Below are positions 48,035 through 64,000 of a stretch of DNA of 64,000 bases, piece after piece. The DNA comes from Jiella mangrovi (GTDB lineage Bacteria > Pseudomonadota > Alphaproteobacteria > Rhizobiales > Rhizobiaceae): contig NZ_JAGJCF010000003.1 in assembly GCF_017815135.1 (NCBI RefSeq), forward strand, positions 1 through 64,000. The letters run 5' to 3'. The stretch's first letter is position 1, and each line of letters opens with the position of its first letter. The position numbers and the translations under genes were made by a program. Below the pieces are notes generated by a model. The model made no database searches. It saw only the letters and a program-made list of their open reading frames with translations, and was not told the origin of the DNA.

Positions 48035-48218
48035 GGCTGGCCAGGCGGTTTCCGTGCAAGAGACCAGGCAATGCGGGCGTCGTGGCGTCCGCATTGCGGC
48101 GGGCAGAGCGCCCGGAAATTGCTCTGTCCGTGACTGAAAGCCTCGCATTGTGCTGCGCAGGTTTTCAAGACGCTGGGGATCCGAGACTTCGCTCGAGACG
48201 CCATTGATTCGCGACGTT

Positions 48219-48347: not shown

Positions 48348-48473
48348 ACGTGTCGACGATCCGCGCCTCAGCCGTTCGGCTCCTGCGCTCGCATCGATCA
48401 TGGAGCAAAGCCGTCGACGGTCTTGCGCGGTGCTCGCTCCAAAACGCCGTACACCTCTTACGCCCCCTAAACG

Positions 48474-48851: not shown

Positions 48852-49135
48852 CAGGCCGCGGCCTCCTTGGGGGGCGTCGCTCCGGGAACTGCGCCTCCGG
48901 CGATCAGAGCTTTAGCGCTGATATATTCGTCAATGGCCTCCCAGCCAACTGCATCACCGAATGGCAGGATCTTCCAATCCTGCCGCTGCTCGATGCTCGC
49001 TGCATCGAGCCGCGGGTACCACCACAGCGGGGCTTCTATCTTCCGACCATCGACCATCGTAAAGACGATGCTATCAGCGGTGACAGCGACGTCTGCGACC
49101 GCCAGGTGGCGATCGTCAATTTCCAAAATGGTCAT
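48851..49135 (-). CDS. DUF2442 family protein (antitoxin-like)
   Basis: A 94-residue protein with DUF2442 features: LEIDDRHLAVADVAVTADSIVFTMVDGRKIEAPLWWYPRL. The ATG at 49135 has GGAGG 6 nt upstream, and begins inside the DUF4160 gene (20-nt overlap), indicating coupled translation. DUF2442 is often paired with DUF4160 as a predicted toxin-antitoxin couple; activity is unproven here. Confidence 0.8.
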   Translation of the reverse strand: MTILEIDDRHLAVADVAVTADSIVFTMVDGRKIEAPLWWYPRLDAASIEQRQDWKILPFGDAVGWEAIDEYISAKALIAGGAVPGATPPKEAAA

Positions 49136-49352
49136 TCCAGGCCTCCAGGAAGCTGTCATTATTTTTCGCGACGATCTTCATGATCGCATTGACTTCGCGA
49201 GCAGAGAAACCCGCGTTTCGAGCAAGACGCATATCCTTCAACCACACCTTCAGCTGCTTTCCATCCTTAAGGATATGGATATGCGGCGGTTCTCCGATTT
49301 CCTTCGAATAGAACAGAAAGCGGTGGCCTTTCCAATGGAGCACCGTGGGCAC
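49116..49352 (-). CDS. DUF4160 family protein (toxin-like partner)
   Basis: A 78-residue protein of the DUF4160 family: GHRFLFYSKEIGEPPHIHILKDGKQLKVWLKDM, followed by FSAREVNAIMKIVAKNNDSFLEAW. The HIHI motif and the C-terminal helix are typical. It is first in a three-gene unit with DUF2442 and an unknown gene. A toxin role is inferred only from family reports. Confidence 0.85.
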   Translation of the reverse strand: MPTVLHWKGHRFLFYSKEIGEPPHIHILKDGKQLKVWLKDMRLARNAGFSAREVNAIMKIVAKNNDSFLEAWNDHFGN

Positions 49353-49564
49353 TTCATCGACCTCATGTCGTCCCGTTCGCCGAACAGCCGATCTGCAGGG
49401 AATTCGACGTATTTGTCTTGATGATCCTATGATCGCATCGTTGATCCAATCTGCAAACCTTTGGCAACGGGCGGACGTCGTGCGGTTCTGCGTCCCCGGG
49501 ATGACTCCCGAGGACGCCGAACCGCCGAGGCTTCGAACCGGCTGGCAGCCGAGGCTGGTACGGC

Positions 49565-50482
49565 TCAGCTGCCGCCCTCGATCTTGTCTTCGGTCTTCGT
49601 CTCGAAGTCGCTCGCATCGTGGCGCTCGCGCAGCTGCGTCGAGGGATCGCCGCTCACCGAGTTGACCATCGAGCCGCGCTTTGCGCCCGGGCGCTCGCCG
49701 ATCATCTTGCGCCAGCGCTGGACGTTCTCGTATTCCTCGACGGCGAGGAACGTGCCGGCGTCGCCATAGGCCTCGCCCGCCGCGATGCGGCCGTACCAGG
49801 GCCAGATCGCCATGTCGGCGAGGGTGTATTCACTGCCCGCGATATATTCGTTGTCCTTCAGCTGCTTGTCGAGCACGTCGAGCTGGCGCTTCACTTCCAT
49901 GGCGTAGCGGTCGATCGCGTACTGGATCTTGATCGGCGCATAGGCATAGAAATGCCCGAAGCCGCCGCCGAGGAAGGGCGCCGAGCCCATCTGCCAGAAC
50001 AGCCAGTTCATCGCCTCGGCCCGCGCACGAGCATCTGTCGGCAGAAACGCCCCGAACTTGTCGGCGAGATAGACCATGATCGAGCCGGATTCGAACAGCC
50101 GGATCGGCGCGCCGCCGTCCTTCGGCTTGTGATCCATCATCGCCGGGATCTTCGAGTTCGGATTAACCGAAACGAAGCCCGAGCCGAACTGGGCGCCCTC
50201 GTTGATGCGAATCAGCCAGGCGTCGTATTCGGCCTCCGAATGCCCCGCCGCGAGCAGCTCCTCCAGCATGATCGTCACCTTGACGCCGTTGGGCGTGCCC
50301 AGCGAATAGAGCTGCAGCGGATGCTTGCCGACCGGCAGCTCCTTGTCCTCGCGCGCACCTGCGGTCGGCCGGTTTATCGCGGCGAAAGCGCCGCCATTGC
50401 CGGGCTCCCAGGTCCAGACCTTGGGCGGCACATAGCCGGCGGGCAGATTGTTCTCGGGAGGGAACTTGGTCTCGTCACTCAT
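49565..50482 (-). CDS. yghU: Glutathione-dependent disulfide-bond oxidoreductase (YghU-like GST)
   Basis: A 305-residue GST-superfamily enzyme. The PTAGAREDKELPVGKHPLQLYSLGTPNGVKVTIMLEEL N-terminus and FVSVNPNSKIPAMMDH, FESGSIMVYLADKFGAF, FGHFYAYAPIKIQYAIDR are signatures of the YghU/YfcG group. It reduces disulfides with glutathione. ATG at 50482 is used; a start at 50521 adds 13 residues without an SD. Confidence 0.9.
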   Translation of the reverse strand: MSDETKFPPENNLPAGYVPPKVWTWEPGNGGAFAAINRPTAGAREDKELPVGKHPLQLYSLGTPNGVKVTIMLEELLAAGHSEAEYDAWLIRINEGAQFGSGFVSVNPNSKIPAMMDHKPKDGGAPIRLFESGSIMVYLADKFGAFLPTDARARAEAMNWLFWQMGSAPFLGGGFGHFYAYAPIKIQYAIDRYAMEVKRQLDVLDKQLKDNEYIAGSEYTLADMAIWPWYGRIAAGEAYGDAGTFLAVEEYENVQRWRKMIGERPGAKRGSMVNSVSGDPSTQLRERHDASDFETKTEDKIEGGS

Positions 50483-50769
50483 GGAAAACGGCCTTTTGGT
50501 TCGAAAAACTGAGATTGGCAACGCGGGTTCGCGCCCGCGTCCTGGCCATGAACATATCGACCCGACCCGCGATTGCGAGACGCAACGGACCGTTCTTCAT
50601 CCAAACGATCGTCGACACCGTCCCGATGCGCAGCGCCATGTCCGGCAAGGCGCCCTAAGAGGACAGGCTGCTTTCACCTCGCATTGGCCAGAGCGGGCAT
50701 CGAAGGCGCGCGCGTGATCCCGGAGCCGGAACGGCTGCGGCTTAGCCAATGTTCGGTGTGAGGCAAGAA

Positions 50770-50845
50770 TGGTGGGCGGTGAGAGGCTCGAACTCCCGAC
50801 ATCCTCGGTGTAAACGAGGCGCTCTACCAGCTGAGCTAACCGCCC
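50770..50845 (-). tRNA. tRNA-Val (anticodon TAC)
   Basis: Reverse-complement reading gives acceptor GGGCGGT...ACCGCCC, discriminator A and encoded CCA. The D-arm (TAGCTCAGCTGGTAGAGC), anticodon loop TTTACAC and TPsiC loop GTTCGAGCC are standard; anticodon TAC is valine. It lies upstream of the ABC operon's last gene by about 110 bp and ends before the yghU side by 287 bp. Confidence 0.97.
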
Positions 50846-50959
50846 CTGCCTGTGCCATAGGGGGTTCCGGCTATCGGCGTCAAGCCCGGCTCGCCTTGAT
50901 CTTCCGCTCGGTCTCGCGTCGGGCGAACCCCGTCGCGGTCGGCGCAGGGCAGGGTGTCA

Positions 50960-51745
50960 TCAGAAGGTCAGTCCCGCGGCGGCTGCTTCGGCGAGATAGG
51001 GATTCTGGTTCCGGCTCGCGGCGTAGTTCGCCGGATCGAGCGTTGCGCAGATGAGGGTGGGGTCGCTTTCGCCGGCCCGCGCAAGGGCGCTTCCATCCGG
51101 AGCTGCGATCACCGACTGTCCCTGATAGGCAAATCTTGCGTCGGCGCCGCAGTGATCGGCATAGACGATGAAGAGCTGATTTTCGAAGGCGCGGACCGGC
51201 ACCAGCTGTTCGGCGATGAAGCGGGCCCCCTGGCTTTTCGGCAGGGCCGTCGGCACGAGGATCGCCTGGCCCCCCCGACGGGCGAGGTCGCGGCAGAGTT
51301 CGGGAAACTCGACGTCGAAACAGATCAGCAGACCGCAGCGCAGCCCGCCGATCTCGACGATGGGCGAGGGCACTGATCCGGGGACGAATAGCTGCTTCTC
51401 GTAGTCGCCGTAGAGCATGCGCTTTTCATAGACGACCGGCGCAAGGCCCGGCGCGAGGAACGCTGCGGCATTGCCGAGGCCGGTGGGTGTCCGCACTGCC
51501 AGACCAAGGCAGACGGCGATGCCGACGTCGTTCGCGGTCTTCTGCCATTTTTCGAGCGCCGGCTGTGCTTCGGCGGCAGTGTCGCGGATCGCCGCTTCGG
51601 CGCCGTAGCCGGTGACGGCGAGCTCCGGCAGGACGACGAGCTCTGCGCCCGCGCCCGCCGCGGCCTCGATCTCGCCGAGAATGGTTGCGCGGCGCTGCGC
51701 AAGGTCGCCGATTGCGGCGTCCAGCTGAATGGCGGCGACTTTCAC
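50960..51745 (-). CDS. Carbon-nitrogen hydrolase (nitrilase superfamily)
   Basis: A 261-residue amidase-type enzyme. The catalytic triad is Glu in LVVLPELAVTGYG, Lys in VYEKRMLYGDYE and Cys in GLLICFDVEFPELCRDLA. It could hydrolyse an amide such as an omega-amide, a carbamoyl-amine, or 4-guanidinobutyramide. The GTG at 51745 overlaps the permease stop by 4 nt (GTGA), so it is the last gene of the operon. Confidence 0.9.
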   Translation of the reverse strand: MKVAAIQLDAAIGDLAQRRATILGEIEAAAGAGAELVVLPELAVTGYGAEAAIRDTAAEAQPALEKWQKTANDVGIAVCLGLAVRTPTGLGNAAAFLAPGLAPVVYEKRMLYGDYEKQLFVPGSVPSPIVEIGGLRCGLLICFDVEFPELCRDLARRGGQAILVPTALPKSQGARFIAEQLVPVRAFENQLFIVYADHCGADARFAYQGQSVIAAPDGSALARAGESDPTLICATLDPANYAASRNQNPYLAEAAAAGLTF

Positions 51746-52548
51746 TTCTGGCCTCCATCCGACCAGGCGCCGAGCAGCCGGGGCAGGTCGCCGAACCGTG
51801 CGACGAGGCCGAAGACGACGACGGCGACCGCAACGAAGAGAACCGAGATCGACGCCATGGTCGGCGTGTAGCCGTATCGCAGCGCATTGAAGATCTTGAT
51901 CGGGACGGTCACCTGGGTGAAGCCGACGGTCATGTAGGCGACGATGTATTCGTTCAGCGACAGGACGAAGGCAAAGGCGAAGCCCGAGATGATGTAGGGG
52001 GCGATCATCGGCAGAACGATGGTCGTCAGGATCTGCCGGTTGTCGGCGCCCATGGTGCTCGCAGCTTCCGTCACCTCGCGGTCGATGGTGGAAAAGCCCA
52101 GCGAGATCGTCACCAAGGGAAGGCTGGTGAAGAAGACCGCATGGGAGATCACCACCGTATACCACGCGCCGTAAGAGCCGATCGTCGCCCAGAAGCTCAG
52201 TGCTCCGAGCGCGGTGATCACCGGCGGCAGCACGAAAGGCGAGACACCGAGAAGCTGGACGATCCGGCCGAAGACGGTCGTCTTTCGCCACAGCGCATAG
52301 CCGATCGGCAGGGCGATGAGGACGGCAAGGCTCGCCGCACCGAGCGCGATCAGCACCGAGGTGAACAGCGCGCTCCGCCAGCCCTCGTCGGTAAAGATCT
52401 GGGCATACCAGCCGAGCGAAAATCCTTCGGGAGGAAAGGTCAGGCTCTGCTTCTCGTTGATCGAGACGCCGGCGATGACGACGAGAGGGGTCGCGAGAAA
52501 CAGGGCGACGAGGCCGAAGAACAGCCGGGTGAACAGCTTTTCCATCAT
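51742..52548 (-). CDS. ABC transporter permease (PotC/PotI-type)
   Basis: A 268-residue inner-membrane permease with about six helices. The EAA motif region is EVTEAASTMGADNRQILTTIVLPMIAPYI. It is the second permease of importer 2 and overlaps the first by 4 nt (ATGA at 52548). GGGAGG precedes the ATG. Binding-protein family suggests polyamines or related cations. Confidence 0.92.
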   Translation of the reverse strand: MMEKLFTRLFFGLVALFLATPLVVIAGVSINEKQSLTFPPEGFSLGWYAQIFTDEGWRSALFTSVLIALGAASLAVLIALPIGYALWRKTTVFGRIVQLLGVSPFVLPPVITALGALSFWATIGSYGAWYTVVISHAVFFTSLPLVTISLGFSTIDREVTEAASTMGADNRQILTTIVLPMIAPYIISGFAFAFVLSLNEYIVAYMTVGFTQVTVPIKIFNALRYGYTPTMASISVLFVAVAVVVFGLVARFGDLPRLLGAWSDGGQK

Positions 52549-53399
52549 TTCGCCTCCCTGCGTCCACCGAACATCGTGGAGAGGAGGACGAGGATCAGGC
52601 TGGAGGCGACCAAAAACACCGCCATCGCGGCAGCAAACGGCATGTTGGACTGGTAGACCGCCTGATCGGTGATCAGCACCGACAGCGTCCAGTGCTGTGG
52701 CCGGCCGAGAAGCTGCGGCAAGAGATAGGCGCCGAGGGCGAAAACGAAGACGATGATGAAGGTCGCGACCAGTGCGTTTCTGAGGCTCGGCACGATGACG
52801 TTGAAGAACGCGCGGACCGGCGAGGCGCCGAGCGTGCGGGCGGCCTCCGAAAGCGAGGGGTCGAGCCGGGAAAAAGCCGGATAAAGGACGAGGATCGAAT
52901 AGGGAAAGGCCTGGTAGACCATGCCGCAAAGGACGGCGGTGAAGCTCGGGCTCCAGGCCTCGGGCCCGTCCATGAGGCCGATCGCGACGAAGAGGTTGGA
53001 AAGGCCGGCGGTGCGCGACAGGAGCGTCGACCAGGCAAAGCCGATGATGACTTCGGAAAGCGACAGCACCGCCATCATCGCCACCAGCCAGGGCACCTGA
53101 GAGCGCCGGGGCAGCCGCGACAGGAGATAGGTGAAGGGCGCGCCGATCGTCAGGCATACGGCCGAGACAAGCGCCGAAAGCCCGACGGAAAACAGAAGGA
53201 TGTCGGCGAAGAACCAGGACAGGAAGCGCTGGTAGTTCGCCGTGGTCAGGACCGGCGTGTAGAACCCGCCCTGTTCGCGCGAAAAGAACGAGACCGCGAT
53301 CATCAGGCCGAAGGGAACGACGAAGAACGCCGCGAGCATCACCGCCGGAAAGGCGAGTGCCGCCTGACCGCTGGCGTTGGTTCTCGCCGGAGCGCTCAT
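52545..53399 (-). CDS. ABC transporter permease (PotB/PotH-type)
   Basis: A 284-residue permease. Six helices and an EAA loop (LSEAARTLGASPVRAFFNVIVPSL) mark the polyamine-type family. It follows the ATPase with a 4-nt overlap (ATGA), and is followed by the second permease. Confidence 0.92.
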   Translation of the reverse strand: MSAPARTNASGQAALAFPAVMLAAFFVVPFGLMIAVSFFSREQGGFYTPVLTTANYQRFLSWFFADILLFSVGLSALVSAVCLTIGAPFTYLLSRLPRRSQVPWLVAMMAVLSLSEVIIGFAWSTLLSRTAGLSNLFVAIGLMDGPEAWSPSFTAVLCGMVYQAFPYSILVLYPAFSRLDPSLSEAARTLGASPVRAFFNVIVPSLRNALVATFIIVFVFALGAYLLPQLLGRPQHWTLSVLITDQAVYQSNMPFAAAMAVFLVASSLILVLLSTMFGGRREAK

Positions 53400-54439
53400 C
53401 GCGCCACACCTTCGGAAAAGACGACGACGGCGTCCGGAGCGATCGAGAGCGAAACCTCGTCACCGACGGCAAGGGCGTCGTGGCCGCTCGCGCGCTGGGC
53501 AATCATCCGGCCGGCCTCTGTCGAAAGGTATATCTCGACGGCGGAGCCCATGTCCCGCACGAACTCGACGGTCGCCGGGATCGGGGCATCGCCGGCCGGG
53601 CGAATGACGACGTCTTCCGGCCGCACGGAGATTTCGGCTTCCCGCCGGCCGGCGCCCAGTTGAAGTCCGGGGATGGTGCCGCCGGCGATCTCGGCGCCGC
53701 CTTTTCCCGGCTTTGCGACGAGACAGTTCGTCTGCCCGAGGAAATCGGCGACGAAGGGCGAAGCCGGCTTGCGATAGACATCGATCGGCCGGTCCATCTG
53801 GAGGATCCGGCCGCCCTCCATGACGACGATCGCATCGGCCATGGTCATCGCCTCGCGCTGATCATGGGTGACGACGATCGTGGTGATGCCGAGCCGCTCC
53901 TGGAGTTGCCTGAGCTCGACCTGCATCGCCTCGCGCAGTTTGGCGTCGAGGGCCGAGAGCGGCTCGTCGAGCAGGAAGAGCTTCGGCGAGACGGACAGGG
54001 CTCTTGCAATCGCCACGCGCTGGCGCTGGCCACCCGAAAGCTGGGTGATCGGCCGATCCGCGACGCCCGGCAGGCGCACGAGATCGAGAAGCTCGGCGAC
54101 CCGTTTCTCGCGCTCGGCCTTTCCCCTGCCGCGGATTTTCAAGGGATAGGCGATGTTCTCGCGGACGCTCAGATGCGGAAACAGGGCGAGCGACTGGAAA
54201 ACCATCCCGAAATCCCGGCGATGGACGGGCGTCGCGTCGATCCGCTCGCCTTCGAACTTCACCTCGCCCGAGCTCGCCGATTCAAGCCCGGCGATGATCC
54301 GCAACAAAGTGGTCTTGCCGCAGCCGGAGGGTCCGAGCAGGCAGACGAAGCTGCCTGGCGGCACGGACAGGGTGGCGTCGTCGACGGCGACGATGTCGCC
54401 ATAGCGCTTGGTCACGGCGACGAGGTCGAGCGTGCTCAT
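53396..54439 (-). CDS. ABC transporter ATP-binding protein (PotA-type)
   Basis: A 347-residue ATPase: Walker A GPSGCGKTT, signature LSGGQRQRVAIARAL, Walker B LFLLDEPLSALDA, H-loop VVTHDQREA, then a TOBE domain in the last 100 residues. ATG at 54439 is used; a TTG at 54445 with GAGGA ahead is possible. It starts 183 bp after the binding-protein gene, with a hairpin between. Confidence 0.92.
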   Translation of the reverse strand: MSTLDLVAVTKRYGDIVAVDDATLSVPPGSFVCLLGPSGCGKTTLLRIIAGLESASSGEVKFEGERIDATPVHRRDFGMVFQSLALFPHLSVRENIAYPLKIRGRGKAEREKRVAELLDLVRLPGVADRPITQLSGGQRQRVAIARALSVSPKLFLLDEPLSALDAKLREAMQVELRQLQERLGITTIVVTHDQREAMTMADAIVVMEGGRILQMDRPIDVYRKPASPFVADFLGQTNCLVAKPGKGGAEIAGGTIPGLQLGAGRREAEISVRPEDVVIRPAGDAPIPATVEFVRDMGSAVEIYLSTEAGRMIAQRASGHDALAVGDEVSLSIAPDAVVVFSEGVAR

Positions 54440-54471
54440 GGGCAAAGTGTTCCTCGGGCAGCGGGATGGTT

Positions 54472-54496
54472 CTCATCCCGGGCAGGCCCGGGACGA
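54472..54496. repeat. Single REP-type hairpin in the ABC operon
   Basis: CCCGGGC (54477-54483) pairs with GCCCGGG (54486-54492) across two bases, in a TCAT...GACGA context like the CGTCATCCCGGG elements. It lies between the binding-protein gene and the ATPase gene of one operon. Such hairpins can protect the upstream mRNA and give more binding protein than ATPase. Confidence 0.65.
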
Positions 54497-54622
54497 AGCA
54501 AGGTGAGGGGCGCTCATGCAGCCGGGCGCCGCGGCTTCAACGATCGCGGGTCTCGGCTGCGCCGCCCCGTGAGGGCTCATCGAGCCCGGGGAGGGCGGAA
54601 TGGCGCCGCGAAGCCTTCATCG

Positions 54623-55711
54623 TCAGCCGACGATCAGCTCGGTCCATTTCTGGTTCAGCCAGTCGGACTTCTCGACATAGAGATCGTAGCGCGGGACGAT
54701 CGGCTCGATTTCCGAGGAGACCGCTGCGAACTCCTTGTCGGTCAGGTCGAGGACGTCGCGTTTGAGCACCGGCGCTGTGCCGACCTTGCGGGCGAGGAGC
54801 CCGGCGATCTCCGGCTGCGTCATGTAATCGATGAAGGTCGTCGCGAGATTGAGCTTCTGCGAAGCCTTCGTCACCGCCCAGCAGCCCGAATCGGAAATTC
54901 CACCCTCCTTGGGGAAGGTCGAGCGCACCGGGAAACCGTCGGCGGCGGCCAGTCCGGTGACGTCGTGGTAATACTGGCCCATCGGAATCTCGCCCGATTT
55001 CAGCGCCTGTTCGAATTGCGCCTCGTCGCGATACCAGAGCTGGACGTTCGGCTTCAGCTCGGCGAGCTTGTCCATCACCTTCAGGATACCGTCATCGGTG
55101 GAGAGGATGTCGGTCCCGCCGAAGAAGGTCTTCGCCGTCACTTCCAAAAGGAACGAGTTGGAGACCAGAGCAAGGAGGCCGAGCTTGTCCTTCTTGTCGG
55201 CGTCCCAGAACGTCGCCCAGCTGTCCGGCGCCTCAGGGAAGGCATCGGTGTTGGAGACGAGGGTGATGTACCAGGCGACGGCGCCGACGCCGGCGACGCG
55301 GCCATCGTCGTATTTCACCGTGAAGGGCGGCAGGATGGCGTCGAAATTTCCGATCTTTGCGGGATCGAGCGGCTGCCAGAGCTCGGTCTGCAGCCCTTTG
55401 CGCATGGCGACCTGGCTCATCATCGAGACGTCGGCCGGGGCGACACCGGCGCGGCCGGCCTGTTCGAGCTGGACGAGCCAGGCTTCGCCCGTCGGTTCGG
55501 CGACGCTCTCGACGGCTATGCCGGTCGCCTTGGTGAATTCCGGGAAGATGTTGGTGTCGAAGGAGTCCTTGAAGTAACCGCCATAGACGCCGACCTTCAG
55601 CGACTTGTCCTGGGCCCTGAGAACGGTGGGCATGGCGAGGGTGGCGGCGCCGGCGCCGGCGGCGAGAAGCGCCTGGCGGCGATTGAGGACGAGGGAAGGC
55701 TTGCGGGTCAT
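54623..55711 (-). CDS. Polyamine-type ABC substrate-binding protein (PotD/PotF-like)
   Basis: A 362-residue periplasmic protein. The N-terminus has a twin-arginine-like signal (LNRRQALLAAGAGAATLA). Mature blocks include LKVGVYGGYFKDSFDTNIFPEFTKATGI and LYVEKSDWLNQKWTELIVG. Family members bind putrescine, spermidine or guanidino compounds. GAGTG-type spacing gives no strong SD in the shown leader; ATG at 55711 fits the signal. It is the receptor for importer 2. Confidence 0.88.
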   Translation of the reverse strand: MTRKPSLVLNRRQALLAAGAGAATLAMPTVLRAQDKSLKVGVYGGYFKDSFDTNIFPEFTKATGIAVESVAEPTGEAWLVQLEQAGRAGVAPADVSMMSQVAMRKGLQTELWQPLDPAKIGNFDAILPPFTVKYDDGRVAGVGAVAWYITLVSNTDAFPEAPDSWATFWDADKKDKLGLLALVSNSFLLEVTAKTFFGGTDILSTDDGILKVMDKLAELKPNVQLWYRDEAQFEQALKSGEIPMGQYYHDVTGLAAADGFPVRSTFPKEGGISDSGCWAVTKASQKLNLATTFIDYMTQPEIAGLLARKVGTAPVLKRDVLDLTDKEFAAVSSEIEPIVPRYDLYVEKSDWLNQKWTELIVG

Positions 55712-55778
55712 GTCTTCACTCCTTTGGGGGATGGGCCGGATCCGTCTGGATCCTCCGTTTCGGGTAGTTTCGTTGATT

Positions 55779-56831
55779 TCAACGCTGGACCGCAAGGGCC
55801 GGTGACAGCCTTGCGAGGCTGAGAAGCTCGAACAGCATCTGGGCGCCGGCATGGGCGGTGTTGGTCGTCGCGTCGTATTGCGGGGCGACCTCGACGACAT
55901 CGCCGCCGATCATGTTGACGCCCGCGAGCCCGCGCAGGATGGCCAGCGCCTCACGGGTCGAGAGGCCGCCGATCTCAGGTGTGCCGGTGCCGGGCGCGAA
56001 GGCGGGGTCGAGACTGTCGATGTCGAAGGACAGATAGACCGGCCCGTCGCCGACCACGGCCCTGGCCTTTTCGACGATGGCGGCGACGCCGAGATCGCTG
56101 ATCTCCTCGGCATGGATGACGGTCATGCCGCTCTCGTAGGAAAACTCCCAGAGATATTCGGACGAGCCGCGAATACCGATCTGGATGGTGCGTTCGGGAT
56201 CGAGAACCCCGTCCAGCACGGCCTGGCGGAACGGCCCGCCATGGTGGAACTTGCAGCCGTCGAAGGGGCCGGAGGTGTCGCAATGGGCGTCGATGTGGAT
56301 CATCCCGACCGGCCGCCCGGCGCCGAGCGCGTGAAGCGTCGGCAACGAAATGGAATGATCGCCGCCGACGAAGAGCGGAAGGACACCGGCCTTCACGATT
56401 GCGGCGGCCGTCTTCTCGATGTCCTGATGCGATGTCGCAAGATCGAAGCGCGAGCGGAACGGCACGTCGCCGATGTCGGCAACGGCAATCTCGTGGGTCG
56501 GCATGGTCTTCAGGACGTGATTGTAGGGGCCGACCCGCTCGATGGTTCTCAGCGCCCTCGGCCCGAAGCGCGAACCGTTGCGGTTGGTGACGCCGAGATC
56601 CATCGGAACGCCGATCATCGCGACCTTCAGGTCGGCGAAGTCCGGCGCCGACCAGTCGATGGCGCGAAACGGAACGTCGAGAAGCGTCGGCAGGCCGGCA
56701 TAGGGCGCAACGCGGGTCCCGCTCGGGTCGAAGAGATGGTCCGCCACCGCTGCGAAGCCATCGTCATGGATCTTGCGCTCATTTTCGCCGGCAAAGCGCT
56801 TGCGGAGCGCGGCGAGTGCATCGTCGTTCAT
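55779..56831 (-). CDS. Agmatinase-family ureohydrolase
   Basis: A 350-residue binuclear-Mn ureohydrolase. Metal ligands sit in FVGGDHSISL, HIDAHCDTSG and SFDIDSLDPAFAPGTGTPE. It splits a guanidino group, giving urea and an amine. Agmatinase, guanidinobutyrase and guanidinopropionase share these motifs, so the substrate is open. It lies 34 bp after the aminotransferase and 67 bp before the binding protein. Confidence 0.9.
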   Translation of the reverse strand: MNDDALAALRKRFAGENERKIHDDGFAAVADHLFDPSGTRVAPYAGLPTLLDVPFRAIDWSAPDFADLKVAMIGVPMDLGVTNRNGSRFGPRALRTIERVGPYNHVLKTMPTHEIAVADIGDVPFRSRFDLATSHQDIEKTAAAIVKAGVLPLFVGGDHSISLPTLHALGAGRPVGMIHIDAHCDTSGPFDGCKFHHGGPFRQAVLDGVLDPERTIQIGIRGSSEYLWEFSYESGMTVIHAEEISDLGVAAIVEKARAVVGDGPVYLSFDIDSLDPAFAPGTGTPEIGGLSTREALAILRGLAGVNMIGGDVVEVAPQYDATTNTAHAGAQMLFELLSLARLSPALAVQR

Positions 56832-56865
56832 CGGTCGGAACCATCCTCGTCAGTCGTCGTCTTGA

Positions 56866-58047
56866 TCAGCTGCTTCGCGTTTCGAGCGAAAGGCGCCGCA
56901 TGATTTCCAGGATTTCGCCTTCCGGCACATTGGCGAAGGCGATCCTCAGATGCTTCTCCTGGCCGGGCCCGAAGAAGGAGCCGGGCAGCGCCAGAATGCC
57001 GAGATCGCGGGCAAGATCGGCCGCCACATCCGCCGCTGGCCGGTCCGGAAAGGGATGCCGTACATAGGCGAAATAGGCTCCGATCTGGTCGAGATGCCAT
57101 CCGGGCAGCGTTACGATCTCCCGCGCGAACAGCCGAGCCCTCGCGGCGATGGTGGCGGCGTTCTCCGACCGCCATTCGGCCATCGCGTCGAAGGCGAAGG
57201 GCAGGGCGACCTGGGCCGGCCGTGGCGCGCAGATCTGCAGGCTGTCGATCACCTTCTCGATCTCGCCGATCATCGCGCCGCCGGCGATCATCGCGCCGAT
57301 CCGGTGGCCCGGAATCGCATAGGCTTTGGAGAAGGAATAAAGGCCGATGAGATTGGTCTCGGCGCGCGGATCGGCAAACAGCGCGTGGGGGCAGCCGGCC
57401 TCCGGCGGCAGAAAATCGCGATAGGTCTCGTCGAGAACGAGATGCAGCCCGCGGCGCACGCAGATGCGGAACAGATCGCGCAGAAGCTCCGGCGGATAGA
57501 TGGCGCTGGTCGGATTGTTCGGGCTGACGAGGACGAGCGCGCGCGTGCGGTCGTCGATGAGGGCTTCCAGACGGTCCGGATCCGGCAGGAAGCCGGTCTC
57601 GGCCCGTGTCGGCAAAGCGCGTTTCTCGATGCCGAGCATGTCGAGCGTCATCTGGTGGTTGAAGTACCACGGCGTCGGCAGAATCACGGCGTCGCCGGCT
57701 CCTGCGACCGCGATCATCGCGGCGAAGAAGGCCTGATTGCAGCCGGCGGTGATGGCGATCCGGGCAGGATCGATGGCGGTCTGGTAGGTCTTCGACACAT
57801 GCCCGGCATAGGCGTCTCGCAAGGCCCGGTCGCCGAGGATGTCGCCATAGCGCGCCGCCGCCGGGCTTGCGGCGGCCTCGCCCAGACGCGCGGCGAACTC
57901 GGCCGGCGGCGCGTGGTTCGGAACCGCCTGGCTGCAGTTGATCAAGGGGCCATGACGCCCGTCATAGGCGCCGGCCCAGCGGTCTGCCTGGGCGATCGGC
58001 GGGGCCAGAACGGCCGCAAGCCGCGGATTTGGGCGGGGAGGGGTCAT
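56866..58047 (-). CDS. PLP-dependent class I/II aminotransferase
   Basis: A 393-residue aminotransferase of fold type I. The PLP lysine is in GLYSFSKAYAIPGHRIGA, PNNPTSAIYPPELL and LVLDETYRDF are the classic Asn/Asp/Tyr motifs. It may transaminate arginine or another basic amino acid, supplying the ureohydrolase pathway, which is inference. Its start overlaps the MBL gene by 4 nt. Confidence 0.9.
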   Translation of the reverse strand: MTPPRPNPRLAAVLAPPIAQADRWAGAYDGRHGPLINCSQAVPNHAPPAEFAARLGEAAASPAAARYGDILGDRALRDAYAGHVSKTYQTAIDPARIAITAGCNQAFFAAMIAVAGAGDAVILPTPWYFNHQMTLDMLGIEKRALPTRAETGFLPDPDRLEALIDDRTRALVLVSPNNPTSAIYPPELLRDLFRICVRRGLHLVLDETYRDFLPPEAGCPHALFADPRAETNLIGLYSFSKAYAIPGHRIGAMIAGGAMIGEIEKVIDSLQICAPRPAQVALPFAFDAMAEWRSENAATIAARARLFAREIVTLPGWHLDQIGAYFAYVRHPFPDRPAADVAADLARDLGILALPGSFFGPGQEKHLRIAFANVPEGEILEIMRRLSLETRSS

Positions 58048-58781
58048 GTCCGCTCTTTCTCGTCGAGCCAGTCGCGGACGATCTTCCTGTGCCGCTCGGC
58101 GCCGTAACTGTCGAAGTGGCCGCCATGAACGATGCGCACGGGCAGCGTCAAGAGCCGCTCCATCGAGGCGACATAGTCGGCGGCGTCGGCATGATAGGTG
58201 TCCTCGATCAGCGGGCCGTCATAGACGATGTCGCCGGAAAACAGGATACCGCTCGCCCTTTCGAACAGGGCGATGCCGCCCGGCGAGTGGCCCGGCGTGT
58301 GGATGACCTCGAAGTGCCGGTCGCCGAGATCGACGATGTCGCCGTCCTCGAGAAGCCGGGTCGCCGGGGCCGCCTTTACCCGATAGGTCGACGACAGATA
58401 GGGCTCCGGCGGCAGGCGGGTGAAGATCGCGTCGGTGACATAGGGGTCGGCGAGCGTCGCCCGGTCGTCCGGATCGGCGAGGATTTCGGCCTCGGCCCGG
58501 TGCACCGAGCGGTGCTCGAACTCGTGATGGCAGCCGATGTGATCGAAATGGGTGTGGCTCGCCACCGCCTCGATGGGGCGCCCGGTGACGAGCGGCACGT
58601 GGCGCCTCAGGCTGACGACGCCCATGCCGCTATCGACGAGCATGTCCTGATCGCGGCCACGCACATGCCAGATGTTGCAGCGGTAGAAGGTCTCGATGAA
58701 GGGCTCGAAGATCCAGGTGACGTCGTCGCCGACGCGTTTCGTCTCGTACCATTCGGAGGCGCTGGCGCGCTCGATGCTCAT
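58044..58781 (-). CDS. MBL-fold metallohydrolase
   Basis: A 245-residue metallo-beta-lactamase-fold hydrolase. The metal motif SHTHFDHIG and HTPGHSPGGIALFE, SGDIVYDGPL and VHGGHFDSYG are complete. It may be a lactonase or thiolesterase. It overlaps its neighbours by 4 nt on both sides, so it is a firm part of the operon. Confidence 0.9.
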   Translation of the reverse strand: MSIERASASEWYETKRVGDDVTWIFEPFIETFYRCNIWHVRGRDQDMLVDSGMGVVSLRRHVPLVTGRPIEAVASHTHFDHIGCHHEFEHRSVHRAEAEILADPDDRATLADPYVTDAIFTRLPPEPYLSSTYRVKAAPATRLLEDGDIVDLGDRHFEVIHTPGHSPGGIALFERASGILFSGDIVYDGPLIEDTYHADAADYVASMERLLTLPVRIVHGGHFDSYGAERHRKIVRDWLDEKERT

Positions 58782-59875
58782 GACCCCTCCGGCAGGACGA
58801 TCGCGCGGGCGGGATCATAGGCGAGGGACAGCAATTCGCCCTCGGCGGGGCTGATCTCCTGCGGCAATTGCAGGGTCAGGCGCTGGCCGTCGCCGGCAAG
58901 AAGGCTGGCCATGCGGTGGGCCCCCATGAAGGTGACGCTGTCGAGGCGGGCATCGCCGAGCGGCTGTGGCCTGCCGGTCGCCCCGGACCTGTCCCCAACG
59001 CCCGATCCGGCAAGGCTGAGATGCTCGGGCCGCAGCATCACCGCCGCCCGGTCCCCGGGTTTGAGCCTGCGCGACTGGTCTTCGCCCCGCAGCCGGCCGA
59101 AGACCGTCTCGATCGCGATACGGCCCGCCTGCGCCTCGGCGACGCGGCCCTGAAGAATGTTGGCAAGGCCGACGAAGCCCGCGGCAAACAGGCTGCGCGG
59201 CCTGAGATACACGTCCTCGGGCGTGCCGAGATCGGCGATCCGCCCCTTGTCCATGACGACCACGGTGTCGGCGATCGCCATCGCCTCCTCCTGATCGTGG
59301 GTGACGTGGATGAAGGTGCTGCCGACGCGCCGGTGAATGGCCGTCAGCTCGGCCTGCATCTGGCGGCGGAGCTTCAGGTCGAGGGCGCCGAGCGGTTCGT
59401 CGAGGAGCAGCACCCTGGGCTCGACGGCGAGCGCCCTTGCGAGCGCGATGCGCTGTTTCTGGCCGCCCGAAAGCGCATGCGGCTTGCGCCGGCCGACATC
59501 CGGCAGGCCGACCAGCCGCAGCATCTCCTCGGTGCGCTCGCGGCGCTCGGCGCCGGCGACGCCGGCCGTGCGCAGGCCGAAGCCGACATTGCCGGCGATC
59601 GTCATGTGCGGAAACAGCGCATAGTCCTGAAACACCGTGGCCGTCGGACGCCTAGCCGGCGGCACGCCGCGCATCTCCTTCCCGCCGATACGGATCGATC
59701 CCGTCTGCGCCGGAAGGAAACCGCCGATCAGCGACAGGAGCGTCGTCTTGCCCGATCCCGAGGGGCCGAGAAGCACGGTGAAGCTGCCGGCCGGGACGGT
59801 CAGGCTGACATCGTCGAGCGCGACGGCTTCGCCATAGCGCTGGGTCACGGTCTCGATCTCGACGGCGCTCGTCAT
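58778..59875 (-). CDS. ABC transporter ATP-binding protein (PotA-type), importer 1
   Basis: A 365-residue ATPase with Walker A GPSGSGKTT, signature LSGGQKQRIALARAL, Walker B LLLDEPLGALDLK, H-loop VTHDQEEA, and a TOBE domain. It overlaps the permease stop by 4 nt. It energises importer 1 with two permeases and a binding protein just upstream. Confidence 0.93.
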   Translation of the reverse strand: MTSAVEIETVTQRYGEAVALDDVSLTVPAGSFTVLLGPSGSGKTTLLSLIGGFLPAQTGSIRIGGKEMRGVPPARRPTATVFQDYALFPHMTIAGNVGFGLRTAGVAGAERRERTEEMLRLVGLPDVGRRKPHALSGGQKQRIALARALAVEPRVLLLDEPLGALDLKLRRQMQAELTAIHRRVGSTFIHVTHDQEEAMAIADTVVVMDKGRIADLGTPEDVYLRPRSLFAAGFVGLANILQGRVAEAQAGRIAIETVFGRLRGEDQSRRLKPGDRAAVMLRPEHLSLAGSGVGDRSGATGRPQPLGDARLDSVTFMGAHRMASLLAGDGQRLTLQLPQEISPAEGELLSLAYDPARAIVLPEGS

Positions 59876-60669
59876 GTAGAGGCCCTTCTGCGGCCAAAGA
59901 CCACGGCCTCGATGACGAAGACGAGCAGGATCGAGACGCCGAAGACCAGTGTGCCGATGGCGTTGGTCTTGGGGTTGAGACCCGAGCGCAGAAGGCTCCA
60001 GATCTCGACCGGCAGCGTCACGTCGAAGCGGGTGAGAAGGAAGGCGATGACGAACTCGTCCCAGGAGAAGGTGAAGGCGAGGAAGAAGCTCGCAAACAAG
60101 GCGGGCCAGATCATCGGCGCGGTGACGAGGAGAAGCACCTTGGCCTCGCTCGCGCCGAGGTCGCGGGCCGAGCGTTCAATATTCGCCTGATCGTCGGTGA
60201 GCTGGCTGTAGATGATCGCAAAGCAGAGCGGCAGGTTGATCACGATGTGACCGAGGCCGGTGGCAAGGAGGGATTTCGGCATTCCGGCGGCATTGAAGGT
60301 GATCAGAAGGCCCATGCCGATGATCAGATAGCTCACCGTCAGCGGCGCCATCAGGAAGCCGGAGAGAAGCCGCGAACCGGGCGGGCGGTGGCGGGCGATC
60401 CCATAGGCGGCGAGAAAGCCGAGAAGGACCGAGGCGAGGGAGGAGAGGACGCCGACGGTCAGCGAATTGAGGAGCGCGTCCATCAGCCGGCCGTCCGACA
60501 GGATCTGGTCGTACCAGCGCAGACTCGGCCCGTTGAAGGGCGGGATCGGGAAGCGTCCGCGATGAAAGGAGAACAGGACGAGGACGGCCACCGGCAGGAA
60601 GATGAAGCCGTAGAGCAGCCCGGCATAGACGAGGCCGAGGACGGAGGAAGCACGGAGCGGCCGGGTCAT
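59872..60669 (-). CDS. ABC transporter permease (PotC/PotI-type), importer 1
   Basis: A 265-residue permease with about six helices; EAA region ERSARDLGASEAKVLLLVTAPMIWPAL. ATG at 60669 overlaps the stop of the partner permease by 4 nt. A polyamine-type importer subunit. Confidence 0.92.
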   Translation of the reverse strand: MTRPLRASSVLGLVYAGLLYGFIFLPVAVLVLFSFHRGRFPIPPFNGPSLRWYDQILSDGRLMDALLNSLTVGVLSSLASVLLGFLAAYGIARHRPPGSRLLSGFLMAPLTVSYLIIGMGLLITFNAAGMPKSLLATGLGHIVINLPLCFAIIYSQLTDDQANIERSARDLGASEAKVLLLVTAPMIWPALFASFFLAFTFSWDEFVIAFLLTRFDVTLPVEIWSLLRSGLNPKTNAIGTLVFGVSILLVFVIEAVVFGRRRAST

Positions 60670-61523
60670 CGCGAACGCTCCAGCCGCAGCCATCTGGCGC
60701 AGGCGAAATAGGCGATGGTGACGACGATCATCAACAGGATCGAAAGCGCCGAGGCCATCGGGAAATCGGCCCGCCGTCCGACCTGCAGCATGATCAGTTG
60801 CGGCATCAGGAGTTCGTTGTTGCCGCCCAGAATCTGCGGGGTGATGAAATCGCCGATACACAGGACGAAGGTGAGGAACGCTCCGGTCATGATGCCCGGC
60901 AGGGTCAAAGGCAAGGTGACGTGGACGAAGGTGCGGACCGGCCCCGCGCCGAGGTCCGCCGCGGCTTTTCGGAACGACGGCGGCAGCTGCTTGAGATTGG
61001 CGTAGATGGTCAGGGTCAGCAGCATGACGAAGAAGTGGGTGAAGCCGATCACCGTCGCGAGGCGCGAATTGGCGAGATCGAGCGGCTCCGAGAGAAGGCC
61101 GATCCCGGTCAGCGCCTTGTTGATCACCCCGTTCGACGAAAGCACCAGCAGCCAGGAATAGGAGCGGACCACATAGGAGGTCCAGAACGGCAGGACCGCG
61201 AGGGCGAGCGCCAGGCGCTGCCAGCGTTCGGGCACGACCTCGGCGAGCACCACGGCAAAGGGATAGGCGAGGAGGATCGAAACGACCGTCACGATCGCCG
61301 TCACAACCAGTGAATTGGCCATCGCGCCGAGGAAATAGCTCCGCTCGAAGAAGGCCGCGTAGTTGGCGAAGGACAGGCCAGCGCCGCCGCTACCCGTCGA
61401 TGGCGTCAGGCTCACATAGGCCATCACCGCAAAGGGCACGGCAAAGAACAGGAGCGTGTAGAGGAGGGCGGGGCCGGCGAACAGGCTGCCCCGCACCCCC
61501 TCCATCGAGGGGCGATCACTCAT
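60666..61523 (-). CDS. ABC transporter permease (PotB/PotH-type), importer 1
   Basis: A 285-residue permease with six helices; EAA region FRKAAADLGAGPVRTFVHVTLPL. It begins 8 bp after the binding-protein gene and is followed by its partner with a 4-nt overlap. Confidence 0.92.
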   Translation of the reverse strand: MSDRPSMEGVRGSLFAGPALLYTLLFFAVPFAVMAYVSLTPSTGSGGAGLSFANYAAFFERSYFLGAMANSLVVTAIVTVVSILLAYPFAVVLAEVVPERWQRLALALAVLPFWTSYVVRSYSWLLVLSSNGVINKALTGIGLLSEPLDLANSRLATVIGFTHFFVMLLTLTIYANLKQLPPSFRKAAADLGAGPVRTFVHVTLPLTLPGIMTGAFLTFVLCIGDFITPQILGGNNELLMPQLIMLQVGRRADFPMASALSILLMIVVTIAYFACARWLRLERSR

Positions 61524-61531
61524 GACGGGCT

Positions 61532-62593
61532 TCAGTGCTGGAGGAACTCGGTCCAGACGTCCTGCATCTTGGCGTCGAGCTCGGGCGAGGGCGTGGGGTA
61601 AAGCTGCGAGTTCTTCACATATTCGGGCTGCTCGTCCCAGCGCAGCGCCTTCTTCTGCGCGTCGGTGAGATCAGCACCGGCCTTCTCGTTGGCCGGCATC
61701 GCCCAATAGCAGGACGAGGTGGCGAGCTTGGCTTGGCCTTCCGGCGACAGGATGTATTTGACGAACTCCGTCGCCAGTTTCTGCTTCTTGGAGTCCTTGA
61801 AAACGCCGATCGCCTGCGCCCAGCGCACGCCGCCCTGCTTCGGGAGGATCCAGTCGAGCGCCGGGTTCTCCGCGCTGAGGCCCGCCGTCACCCATTCGCC
61901 GCCGCCGACGAGAATGTCGACTTCGCCGGTCGCCAGCGCCGTCTGGCTGGAGACGACGTCGCCGACGAGCTTGGCATTGTCCTTCAGCTTGAACAAAGTG
62001 TCCCTGATAGCCGGAAGATCGCTGTCGGACAGATCGGCGGTTTTCTTGCCGAGGCCCATCGCCACCATGCCCTCGACCGGCAGATAATAGTCGTAGACAG
62101 CGATCTTGCCCTTGTACTTGTCGCCCCAGAGCGCCGTCATGTCCTCCATGTCGGCGGGGTCGACCTTGTCCTTGTTGAAGGAGATGGTGTTGTAGCCGTA
62201 TTTCTCGGTGACGGCGTAGCGTTTGCCGTCGCGCATCGTCTGGTCGTCCATGCGGATCGTCGGGTCGATGTCGGCGACCGGCATTTCGTCCTCCGGCAGG
62301 GGGCCGAGGATCCCCGCGTCGATCGCCCGCGGCACGTCGATGGAATCGATGACGAGAACGTCCCAGTCGCCCGGCTGCGACTGGTCGATGATCGAGAGAG
62401 CCGCGCCGGTGCCCTCATAGACCTTGAGATTGACCTTGGCGTCATGGGCCTTCTCGAAGGGCTCGATCAGCGCCGGATCGGTGTGGTCGCACCACACCAG
62501 CGCGTTGAGCTCTTCGGCGGCGTTGGCTGCGGTCGTCACCGTGATTGCGGCAACGGATGCGGCGAGGGCGAGAAGGCGGCTTTTCCTGGTCAT
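61532..62593 (-). CDS. Polyamine-type ABC substrate-binding protein, importer 1
   Basis: A 353-residue periplasmic protein. The signal peptide ends near TTAANAA; mature blocks are LNALVWCDHTDPALIEPFEKAH, VAMGLGKKTADLSDSD and NSQLYPTPSPELDAKMQDVW, the PotD/PotF type. It is the first gene of the 12-gene operon and divergent from the LysR regulator. Confidence 0.92.
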   Translation of the reverse strand: MTRKSRLLALAASVAAITVTTAANAAEELNALVWCDHTDPALIEPFEKAHDAKVNLKVYEGTGAALSIIDQSQPGDWDVLVIDSIDVPRAIDAGILGPLPEDEMPVADIDPTIRMDDQTMRDGKRYAVTEKYGYNTISFNKDKVDPADMEDMTALWGDKYKGKIAVYDYYLPVEGMVAMGLGKKTADLSDSDLPAIRDTLFKLKDNAKLVGDVVSSQTALATGEVDILVGGGEWVTAGLSAENPALDWILPKQGGVRWAQAIGVFKDSKKQKLATEFVKYILSPEGQAKLATSSCYWAMPANEKAGADLTDAQKKALRWDEQPEYVKNSQLYPTPSPELDAKMQDVWTEFLQH

Positions 62594-62722
62594 GCGTCGT
62601 CTCCCAGTCGTCACGTTTGGCGGCAGTCGAGGTGCCGCCATGCCCCTGAAAGCATCAGCCACAGCGGTTGCCTCATTCCTGACCATGAAAGCGAGACTGG
62701 ACGGGTTGGGAAATATCGACCT

Positions 62723-62740
62723 ATCAATACAAACCTTGAT
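62723..62740. promoter_or_regulatory. Possible LysR-type dyad between regulator and operon
   Basis: ATCAA at 62723-62727 and TTGAT at 62736-62740 form an inverted repeat with an 8-nt gap, in the space between divergent genes. This suits a LysR operator loosely (T-N11-A type), but the exact LysR box is not demonstrated. Confidence 0.35.
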
Positions 62741-62765
62741 GATCGTCAAAGTGAGTGACGTCTCG

Positions 62766-63746
62766 ATGCGCGTTTCCGGAAGTGATCTGCGTCTCCTGCA
62801 GGTTTTCGAAGCGGTGGTTCGCCATGGCGGTTTCGCGGCTGCCGCCCGCGATCTCAATGTCAGCCAGTCCACCATCTCGAATCACATGACGGCGCTCGAG
62901 GAGCGCCTCGGATTCGTCTTGTGCCAACGCGGCCGTGGCGGCTTCAGGCTGACGGAGAAGGGGCGCGCGGCGTGGGACGCCTCGCGGCGCCTCGACAAGG
63001 CGCTGCAGGATTTCTCCTCCGATGTCGCATCCGTTCGCGGGGAGCTCTCCGGCGAATTGCGGATCGGCATCCTCGACGCCGTCGCGACCGACCCGGCCAA
63101 TCGGCTGTCAGACGCCGTGAAGGCGTTCGGCGCGATTGCGCCCAACGTCACGCTGGTGATCGCCCAGGAGCGCCCGCAGGACATTCAGCAGAAGGTGGCC
63201 GACGGTCTCTATCACTGCGCCATCGGCAGCTATCGCAACCGCATCGACGGCATCGTCTATGACAGGCTGCACGAAGAGCGCCACAGCCTTTATTGCGGGC
63301 GCGGGCACGAGGCCTTTTCACTCGCCGACGACGAATTGACCGACGAGCGTCTGCAGGAAATGCCCTTCGCGCATCGGGGCTATTGGCGGGACGAGGATAC
63401 GCTGCGCCAGCTCGACTGGCGGATCGGGGCGACGGTCTACCAGATCGAGCCCCAGCTGATTCTCATCCAGTCGGGCCGCTATATCGGCCTTCTACCCGAT
63501 CATTTCGCCGCTCAGGGCATCGCGGCGGGGCGGCTGCGCGCGATTCGCCCGGCCGATATCGGTTATACCTGCCTGTTCGAGCTGTTTTCGCCCGCCAACC
63601 GGCGCGTCAGCGACGTGGCCGCCGCTTTTATCGACACGGTGAAGCGAATCTGGCGGACGGATGCGGGCGATTCGGCATCCCCGGGAGCAGTCCCGGCGCG
63701 CGAAGACGGCTCGAAATTCCACGCTGCTTTGCAGATTTCCGCGTGA
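62766..63746 (+). CDS. LysR family transcriptional regulator
   Basis: A 326-residue LysR protein. The HTH is near the N-terminus (LLQVFEAVVRHGGFAAAARDLNVSQSTISNHMTALEERLG), and a periplasmic-binding-like effector domain follows (LSGELRIGILDAVATDPANRL). ATG at 62766 is used; an upstream ATG at 62739 would add 9 residues. It probably controls the divergent ABC/ureohydrolase operon. Confidence 0.9.
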   Translation: MRVSGSDLRLLQVFEAVVRHGGFAAAARDLNVSQSTISNHMTALEERLGFVLCQRGRGGFRLTEKGRAAWDASRRLDKALQDFSSDVASVRGELSGELRIGILDAVATDPANRLSDAVKAFGAIAPNVTLVIAQERPQDIQQKVADGLYHCAIGSYRNRIDGIVYDRLHEERHSLYCGRGHEAFSLADDELTDERLQEMPFAHRGYWRDEDTLRQLDWRIGATVYQIEPQLILIQSGRYIGLLPDHFAAQGIAAGRLRAIRPADIGYTCLFELFSPANRRVSDVAAAFIDTVKRIWRTDAGDSASPGAVPAREDGSKFHAALQISA

Positions 63747-63863
63747 AATGACGGTTTCGTGTCATCCGGCTCTTTGTCGAGGCCAAGCGACGAACCCGGC
63801 GCTTGACAGGACCCGAGCTTGTCCGTAAACGACCGCCTCACAAGCCGCCACGAGCGGTGGAGC

Positions 63864-63940
63864 GCGGGTGTAGCTCAGTCGGTTAGAGTGCCGGCCTGTC
63901 ACGCCGGAGGTCGCGGGTTCGAGCCCCGTCACTCGCGCCA
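63864..63940 (+). tRNA. tRNA-Asp (anticodon GTC)
   Basis: Acceptor GCGGGTG pairs with CACTCGC (one G-T wobble), discriminator G and encoded CCA at 63938-63940. D-arm TAGCTCAGTCGG, anticodon loop CTGTCAC with GTC, and TPsiC GTTCGAGCC are standard. It lies 117 bp after the LysR gene. Confidence 0.97.
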
Positions 63941-63955
63941 TTTTCTTCCAGGCAA

Positions 63956-63972
63956 GTCTTTTAGCAAAAGAC
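63956..63972. other. Hairpin after tRNA-Asp
   Basis: GTCTTTT at 63956-63962 pairs perfectly with AAAAGAC at 63966-63972 around AGC. No T-run follows on the plus strand, so it may be processing-related or chance. Nothing else is recognisable to the end of the window. Confidence 0.3.
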
Positions 63973-64000
63973 GTTCGGCACGCTGCGACGACGATGCCGG

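Follow-up and report, generated by a model that had tools for sequence, protein, structure and literature searches.

A twelve-gene operon with two ABC importers in Jiella mangrovi and its probable role in the uptake and catabolism of guanidino acids

What does a bacterium take up and degrade with an operon that encodes two complete PotFGHI-like ABC importers together with an aminotransferase, a ureohydrolase and two further hydrolases? The question is raised by a locus in a window of 64,000 nucleotides, bases 1-64000 of one contig (NZ_JAGJCF010000003.1) of the 4.9 Mb genome of Jiella mangrovi, a member of the Rhizobiales. Our answer, to which we assign a probability of about 0.62, is that the operon enables the cell to import guanidino acids, such as 4-guanidinobutyrate and other deaminated derivatives of arginine, and to break them down as a source of nitrogen and carbon. 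This reading is supported by the finding that relatives of the guanidinobutyrase GbuA are encoded near each of the two importers elsewhere (near the first in seven genomes, near the second in one) and by the reported activity of Sinorhizobium meliloti SpeB2, a 69% identical relative of the ureohydrolase (PMC7268258). The first-pass annotation had proposed a catabolic island for a guanidino or polyamine compound. The guanidino half of that proposal gains from the GbuA neighbours and the SpeB2 activity; the polyamine half does not, each binding protein having lost a conserved acidic residue of the polyamine pocket. The features are as follows, with the short names used below (AT, aminotransferase; UH, ureohydrolase; NIT, carbon-nitrogen hydrolase; MBL, metallo-hydrolase; SBP1 and SBP2, binding proteins).

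62769-63746, plus strand: LysR-type regulator, divergent (HTH_1 and LysR_substrate)
62594-62768, no strand: intergenic stretch between the LysR gene and SBP1, presumed control region from its position only
61532-62593, minus strand: SBP1, periplasmic binding protein of importer 1 (SBP_bac_8; PotD-like, far below the cut-off)
60666-61523, minus strand: pH1, importer 1 permease 1, PotB/PotH-like (NCBIfam)
59872-60669, minus strand: pI1, importer 1 permease 2, PotC/PotI-like (NCBIfam)
58778-59875, minus strand: ATP1, importer 1 ATPase, PotA-like (NCBIfam)
58044-58781, minus strand: MBL, hydrolase of the metallo-beta-lactamase fold (Lactamase_B), a frequent partner of importer 1
56866-58047, minus strand: AT, class I/II aminotransferase-like PLP enzyme (PRK07550 family; Aminotran_1_2)
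55779-56831, minus strand: UH, ureohydrolase of the Arginase family, relative of S. meliloti SpeB2
54623-55711, minus strand: SBP2, periplasmic binding protein of importer 2 (SBP_bac_8), with relatives that have conserved neighbours
53396-54439, minus strand: ATP2, importer 2 ATPase (ABC_tran and TOBE_2)
52545-53399, minus strand: pH2, importer 2 permease 1 (BPD_transp_1)
51742-52548, minus strand: pI2, importer 2 permease 2 (BPD_transp_1)
50960-51745, minus strand: NIT, carbon-nitrogen hydrolase of the amidase/nitrilase type, with a GTG start (CN_hydrolase)

The open reading frames and their starts bear out the twelve minus-strand genes between 62593 and 50960 and the divergent regulator on the plus strand; the start of the regulator gene is ambiguous (62739 or 62769). 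The eleven joins, recomputed from the coordinates, measure 8, -4, -4, -4, -4, 34, 67, 183, -4, -4 and -4 bp from SBP1 to NIT, so that nine of them are indeed 4-nt overlaps or gaps of at most 34 bp. The enzymes and the two importers named in the first-pass annotation were likewise recovered by family scans (Aminotran_1_2, Arginase, Lactamase_B, CN_hydrolase and two SBP_bac_8/ABC sets), the NCBIfam scan covering nine proteins and the Pfam scan ten; ATP2, pH2 and pI2, which were outside the NCBIfam scan, are known only as members of general ABC families in Pfam. Two modules can be distinguished within the operon, A (importer 1 and MBL) and B (AT, UH, importer 2 and NIT).

Is this gene order found elsewhere? 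Relatives of SBP2 were collected with a five-protein alignment as the query, and the best 80 of 385 were kept, a non-random set of close relatives headed by Aurantimonas species. We counted neighbours that lie no more than 9.5 kb from SBP2 and share 40% identity or more, and found UH, ATP2, pH2 and pI2 in 79 of the 80 loci each, AT in 71, NIT in 66 and a LysR gene like that of the window in 14. All six module B partners (AT, UH, ATP2, pH2, pI2 and NIT) are present in 52 of the 70 loci with enough flanking sequence. Among 12 further, less related loci of the order, UH occurs in 9 (one of them being GbuA), AT in 5 and NIT in 4, and the whole of module B in three of the eight with enough flank. 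The counts indicate that the presence of AT and NIT varies more than that of UH and the importer. Carriers include Sinorhizobium, Ensifer, Rhizobium, Hoeflea, Roseibium, Aurantimonas and others, with Mesorhizobium among them; many Sinorhizobium and Mesorhizobium are legume symbionts. Since much the same genes recur in much the same order in dozens of genomes, the arrangement is not due to chance, and since SBP2 was detected in 14 of 249 sampled genomes of the order (E 1e-100), module B is patchily distributed. Its regulators are of more than one kind: the LysR protein of the window is 71-86% identical to the regulators of six Aurantimonas module B loci, and another kind (cluster c7) is found in 61 of 92 loci. 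A further ABC importer, of the amino-acid type and with three genes (clusters c17-c19), is present in 13 of the 92 and has weak similarity to lysine/arginine/ornithine binding proteins; it lies between UH and SBP2 at L059:7757-9909 and is similarly placed in L083, L098, L115 and L116.

A useful comparison is provided by S. meliloti. In strain 4H41 (locus L070) the order is AT, LysR, UH, SBP2, ATP2, pH2, pI2, NIT, and by order and annotation this is the speB2/SMc01966-SMc01963 region of strain 1021, the gene names being taken from a table in PMC2912261 and not from the strain 1021 sequence. The six genes from UH to NIT follow one another as in the window and AT and the LysR gene are adjacent; in contrast to the window, AT and LysR are encoded on the other strand, the regulator belongs to cluster c7 and SBP1 is missing at E 1e-50. 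The relatives in S. meliloti have been annotated and discussed as spermidine/putrescine transport (PMC3596328, PMC2912261, PMC2848018). In a tolC mutant, the related genes are lowered about 5- to 19-fold (PMC2912261), and the list of transport genes required for symbiosis in the excerpt of PMC7268258 does not include them. Module B is preceded in this strain (L070:662-5257) by genes for a glutamine-synthetase-like protein, an FAD oxidoreductase and an aldehyde dehydrogenase, the last of which is found again after MBL in other genomes. More generally, Puu-like genes (clusters c92 and c22) and an aldehyde dehydrogenase (cluster c8) are found near module B in Sinorhizobium and Ensifer, and these may belong to the pathway.

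The nearest solved relative of UH is the 3-guanidinopropionase 3nip (275.6 bits), followed by the guanidinobutyrase 3nio (247.5 bits), with agmatinases at 209.8 bits or less; the agmatinases are therefore not its closest solved relatives, and UH also falls short of the agmatinase subfamily PRK02190 (275.1 against 302 bits). The metal-ligand motifs of ureohydrolases, GGDH, DAHxD and DxDxxDP, are all in place. All 86 UH relatives counted have HHGGPFR or HHAGPFR in the loop after DAHCD, the residue at the place of M in GbuA being F or Y; we take this position to set specificity. UH is nevertheless not a typical GbuA. In the latter, the pocket is capped by Arg72 of the neighbouring subunit, which can contact the carboxylate, and the human relative occurs with either R or G at this place (PMC9772407). 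The residue is R in the GbuA enzymes of L158, L165 and L136 and G in both UH and its S. meliloti counterpart, so that UH, besides being nearer to 3nip, lacks the cap. The source genome has no match to GbuA at E 1e-110; it has five matches to the Arginase family, and another of these, encoded on contig C12, shares 47% identity with GbuA. UH is 69% identical to its counterpart in S. meliloti 4H41. Purified S. meliloti SpeB2 was reported to be a ureohydrolase acting on 4-guanidinobutyraldehyde, 5-guanidino-2-oxopentanoate (2-ketoarginine) and 4-guanidinobutanoate, and was named apart from the agmatinases ArgI2 and SpeB (PMC7268258).

The two importers share the fold family and gene set of PotFGHI and PotABCD, and a relationship to Pot systems is supported through NCBIfam for importer 1 and SBP2, with no equivalog cut-off being reached. 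The permeases and the ATPase of importer 1 resemble PotB, PotC and PotA and remain under the curated cut-offs; the nearest approach is that of ATP1 to TIGR01187 (314.7 bits, cut-off 355.6), and SBP1 scores 68.5 bits against a Pot binding-protein model with a cut-off of 582. The pocket residues reported for PotF are W37, D39, D247, E185 and D278 (PMC8666671), and we positioned them on the alignment of the binding proteins by motif. The acid D278 is replaced by Q in SBP1 and by G in SBP2; E185 is replaced by P in SBP1 and kept in SBP2; D39 is conserved in the two proteins; W37 is retained in SBP1, with F at its place in SBP2; and the region of D247 is gapped or shifted, which makes its assignment uncertain. 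Neither protein thus retains the conserved set of Pot pocket residues. The loss of an acid from the pocket would suit a ligand with a single positive end, such as a guanidino acid, a fit that may be read from the residues without amounting to proof. SBP1 and SBP2 are 25% identical to each other, and the mean pLDDT of their predicted structures is 90.5 and 75.1, respectively. Because the SBP2 model falls below 50 at residues 244-269, which form part of the aligned pocket, we base no claim on it.

Further support comes from module A, which is conserved as a unit of its own. In the 249-genome sample of the order, MBL relatives were found in 45 genomes (E 1e-60) and SBP1 relatives in 35 (E 1e-90), the two samples being taken as identical since their genome handles agree. 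Both occur in 34 genomes and lie no more than 8 kb apart in 27, the window's own included; these co-occurrence tests, like those below, ignore shared ancestry. In 13 of 20 fetched MBL regions the genes of importer 1 stand beside MBL, and five of the 13 (L158, L159, L161, L162 and L165) add a ureohydrolase and a divergent LysR gene whose product is 50-53% identical to that of the window. This ureohydrolase is a GbuA relative (tested for L158, with 503 bits to 3nio and 302 to 3nip). GbuA was detected in 33 of the 249 genomes (E 1e-110); it occurs together with MBL in 27 of them and is linked to it in 5. As for importer 2, genome G115 encodes a GbuA (78% identical to that of L158 and 80% to that of L165) beside a 57% identical relative of importer 2 and a 45% identical relative of the LysR regulator. 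Guanidinobutyrase genes are thus found next to either importer in certain other genomes, in line with the earlier suggestion that the second importer handles a compound related to that of the first.

The two modules also meet outside the window. MBL is seen in the fetched stretch of 11 of the 80 SBP2 loci. We searched for SBP1 at E 1e-50 in 13 genomes, namely these 11 and two of Sinorhizobium without MBL in that stretch (L070 and L077), and nine gave a match, eight of them at 66-69% identity and that of L062 at only 33%; none was found in the genomes of L112, L115, L070 and L077. The eight genomes belong to Ensifer, Sinorhizobium, Shinella and Rhizobium, and in every one of the eight fetched regions, chosen because MBL is present there, importer 1, MBL, an aldehyde dehydrogenase and AT share one stretch with module B. 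Modules A and B are thus brought together in two ways, in one operon in the window and as neighbours in eight other genomes. The first-pass annotation knew of no earlier description of the exact combination, which turns out to be only partly unusual, given a module B widespread in Rhizobiales and a module A beside it in eight genomes. In all eight regions the aldehyde dehydrogenase (c8) comes directly after MBL, as does a 39% identical relative in L165.

How might the parts work together? The LysR regulator would sense a guanidino compound, and the two PotD-fold importers would take in two related guanidino acids. AT would strip the alpha-amino group from a guanidino amino acid, most likely converting arginine into 2-ketoarginine. 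The enzyme scores 511 bits in PRK07550 (cut-off 366), a family that states no substrate; its best alignments with solved structures are to ordinary aminotransferases, and the SFSK lysine and the flanking motifs are invariant in a 10-sequence alignment. UH would release urea from a guanidino acid or a guanidino keto acid, as reported for SpeB2, and urea can pass to urease, for which the source genome encodes the alpha subunit UreC with a score over the cut-off. NIT and MBL might hydrolyse amide, cyclic or ester forms before or after the urea step. The best solved relatives of NIT are the amidases 5jqn and 3hkx, and an amide route through this predicted amidase is possible; the matches of MBL to named enzymes of its fold are all weak. 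With module A joined to module B, UH may serve both importers. The gbuA and gpuA systems of Pseudomonas aeruginosa, whose enzymes are the solved 3nio and 3nip, each bring together a ureohydrolase, a single secondary transporter and a LysR regulator. The window shares with them the grouping of a LysR gene, a ureohydrolase for guanidino acids and a transporter; it differs in having two ABC importers, in the additional AT, NIT and MBL, and in the residue of UH at the carboxylate-capping place.

Several observations weigh against a guanidino-acid operon. GbuA and SBP1 occur together in 22 sampled genomes and are no more than 8 kb apart in only 7; simple arithmetic puts the number expected to be linked by chance at well under one of the 22. 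GbuA and SBP2 occur together in four and are linked only in G115, the other three being assemblies of 380 to 710 contigs. UH exceeds the cut-off of the NCBIfam agmatinase model TIGR01230 (186.8 against 174.3 bits), which makes agmatine compatible with its family. The SpeB2 assay used substrate mixtures (PMC7268258), the assignment of all three substrates to SpeB2 alone is our reading of one sentence in that paper, and the equation of SpeB2 with SMc01967 rests on a table in another. In the source genome 12 matches to GABA transaminase include none over the strict cut-off. Locus L027 (genome G046) has importer 2, AT, NIT and a LysR gene without UH between AT and SBP2 (L027:2582-10407), and L122 has no UH in its stretch, so that module B may work without UH. 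Finally, AT is absent at E 1e-60 from four of nine congeners searched.

Among the alternatives, a polyamine or agmatine operon would follow the S. meliloti annotation: UH would be an agmatinase and the importers would bring in putrescine, spermidine or agmatine. The TIGR01230 score of UH fits this, the parts of importer 1 and SBP2 score best or nearly best against Pot models, and the S. meliloti relatives bear the spermidine/putrescine label in the three papers cited above. However, every Pot model shown stays below its cut-off, the acid at D278 is gone from both binding proteins and that at E185 from SBP1, UH is nearer to guanidinopropionase and guanidinobutyrase than to the solved agmatinases, and SpeB2 is distinguished by name from ArgI2 and SpeB. 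We therefore regard this explanation as unlikely.

Alternatively, the two modules might share a promoter and be metabolically separate, A serving 4-guanidinobutyrate and B an amide-bearing amino acid processed mainly by AT and NIT as a transaminase/omega-amidase pair, with UH as an accessory. Locus L027, with AT, importer 2 and NIT in the absence of UH, favours this; NIT and UH need no common substrate, and SBP1 and SBP2 are only 25% identical. The neighbour counts for the best 80 of 385 SBP2 loci speak against it, UH being near SBP2 in 79 (AT in 71 and NIT in 66), as does the joining of A and B in two arrangements, and we consider it improbable, to much the same degree as the polyamine operon. 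Breakdown of a toxic plant arginine analogue (canavanine or gamma-hydroxyarginine), with AT a lyase related to GntC or canavanine-gamma-lyase, was considered because AT resembles the gamma-hydroxyarginine cyclodehydratase GntC, its second-best NCBIfam model (250 bits, below the cut-off of 415), and has Sinorhizobium and Mesorhizobium among the carriers in its favour, but it is very unlikely, since AT aligns best with ordinary aminotransferases and the stand-alone B3/4 editing protein reported beside canavanine operons (PMC10018355) was not found in the source genome, where the sole match to the B3/4 domain is part of an 808-codon frame of a different contig.

Returning to guanidino acids, we asked what the congeners keep. 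In all five that have AT, UH follows it, and importer 2, NIT, SBP1 and the LysR gene were not found in the 20 kb fetched around these pairs; the ATPase match of 41-42% identity that four of them show at a distance of about 8 kb is part of another set of genes. AT and UH are both full-length in L021, L024 and L025, and in L022 the start of the UH frame is truncated. G031, of another genus, also has a bare AT-UH pair (L026). Both genes are under purifying selection, with dN of 0.024-0.172 and dS of 0.37-0.724 between congeners, and dN of 0.046-0.179 and dS of 0.549-0.858 between the window and the genus. The retention of the pair without importers suggests that its substrate is made by the cell or imported otherwise, as arginine might be. 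The operon of the window is flanked by tRNA-Val (50770-50845, minus strand) and tRNA-Asp (63864-63940, plus strand), and in four congeners the pair also adjoins tRNA-Asp. The genes on the far side differ from those of the window, which suggests that a rearrangement or insertion took place at the site. At the tRNA-Asp site of one of these four congeners (L033:8255-11262), whose genome is 84% complete, MBL, an interrupted AT and UH follow one another in the order of the window; since neighbouring genes also look shortened, the interruption may be a sequencing error rather than decay.

A more specific version of the guanidino-acid reading can be built on the AT-UH pair, and we offer it tentatively, at low probability. 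The pair would form a dedicated arginine route in which 2-ketoarginine loses urea directly ('ketoarginase') to give 5-amino-2-oxopentanoate with no decarboxylase; the importers would supply external guanidino acids, MBL would open the cyclic (lactam) form of 4-guanidinobutyrate, NIT would remove the amide, and one regulator would serve the open, cyclic and amide forms. No 2-ketoarginine decarboxylase of the AruH/AruI type was found among the twelve genes by NCBIfam and Pfam, the rest of the genome lying outside this search. Urea release from 2-ketoarginine is already published: the S. meliloti network of PMC7268258 includes its product, 5-amino-oxopentanoate, on which IlvB1 is sevenfold more active. 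That arginine transamination network (AspC, IlvB1, SpeB2 and others) shares with the window a transaminase leading to 2-ketoarginine and a ureohydrolase acting on it; its enzymes come from scattered genes, whereas the twelve genes of the operon are clustered and include no decarboxylase. What would be new under this version is an operon devoted to the route, along with the functions of MBL and NIT. We found no description of the operon in the literature searched, which did not extend to supplements.

Is the operon transcribed as a unit? Between 50600 and 64000, on both strands, neither promoter-like sites (1 found, 1.1 expected) nor terminator-like sites (9 found, 7.9 expected) are in excess, and with no surplus of either a single transcript of all twelve genes is plausible. 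Control by a guanidine riboswitch was considered and rejected, because an Rfam scan of 48000-64000 at gathering scores returned only two tRNAs. The 183 bp gap between SBP2 and ATP2 (54440-54622), the longest of the operon, has a 339 bp counterpart in locus L023 and could contain a processing or attenuation element.

Overall, this is a widespread cluster whose general type is familiar, and the label 'spermidine/putrescine transport' that it carries in S. meliloti is probably wrong. This name has been carried into expression studies, and their data would need to be reread if the uptake of guanidino acids is true. In that case two importer families would gain a testable class of ligands, and the PRK07550 aminotransferases, together with the NIT amidase and MBL hydrolase families, would gain a pathway in which to search for their substrates.

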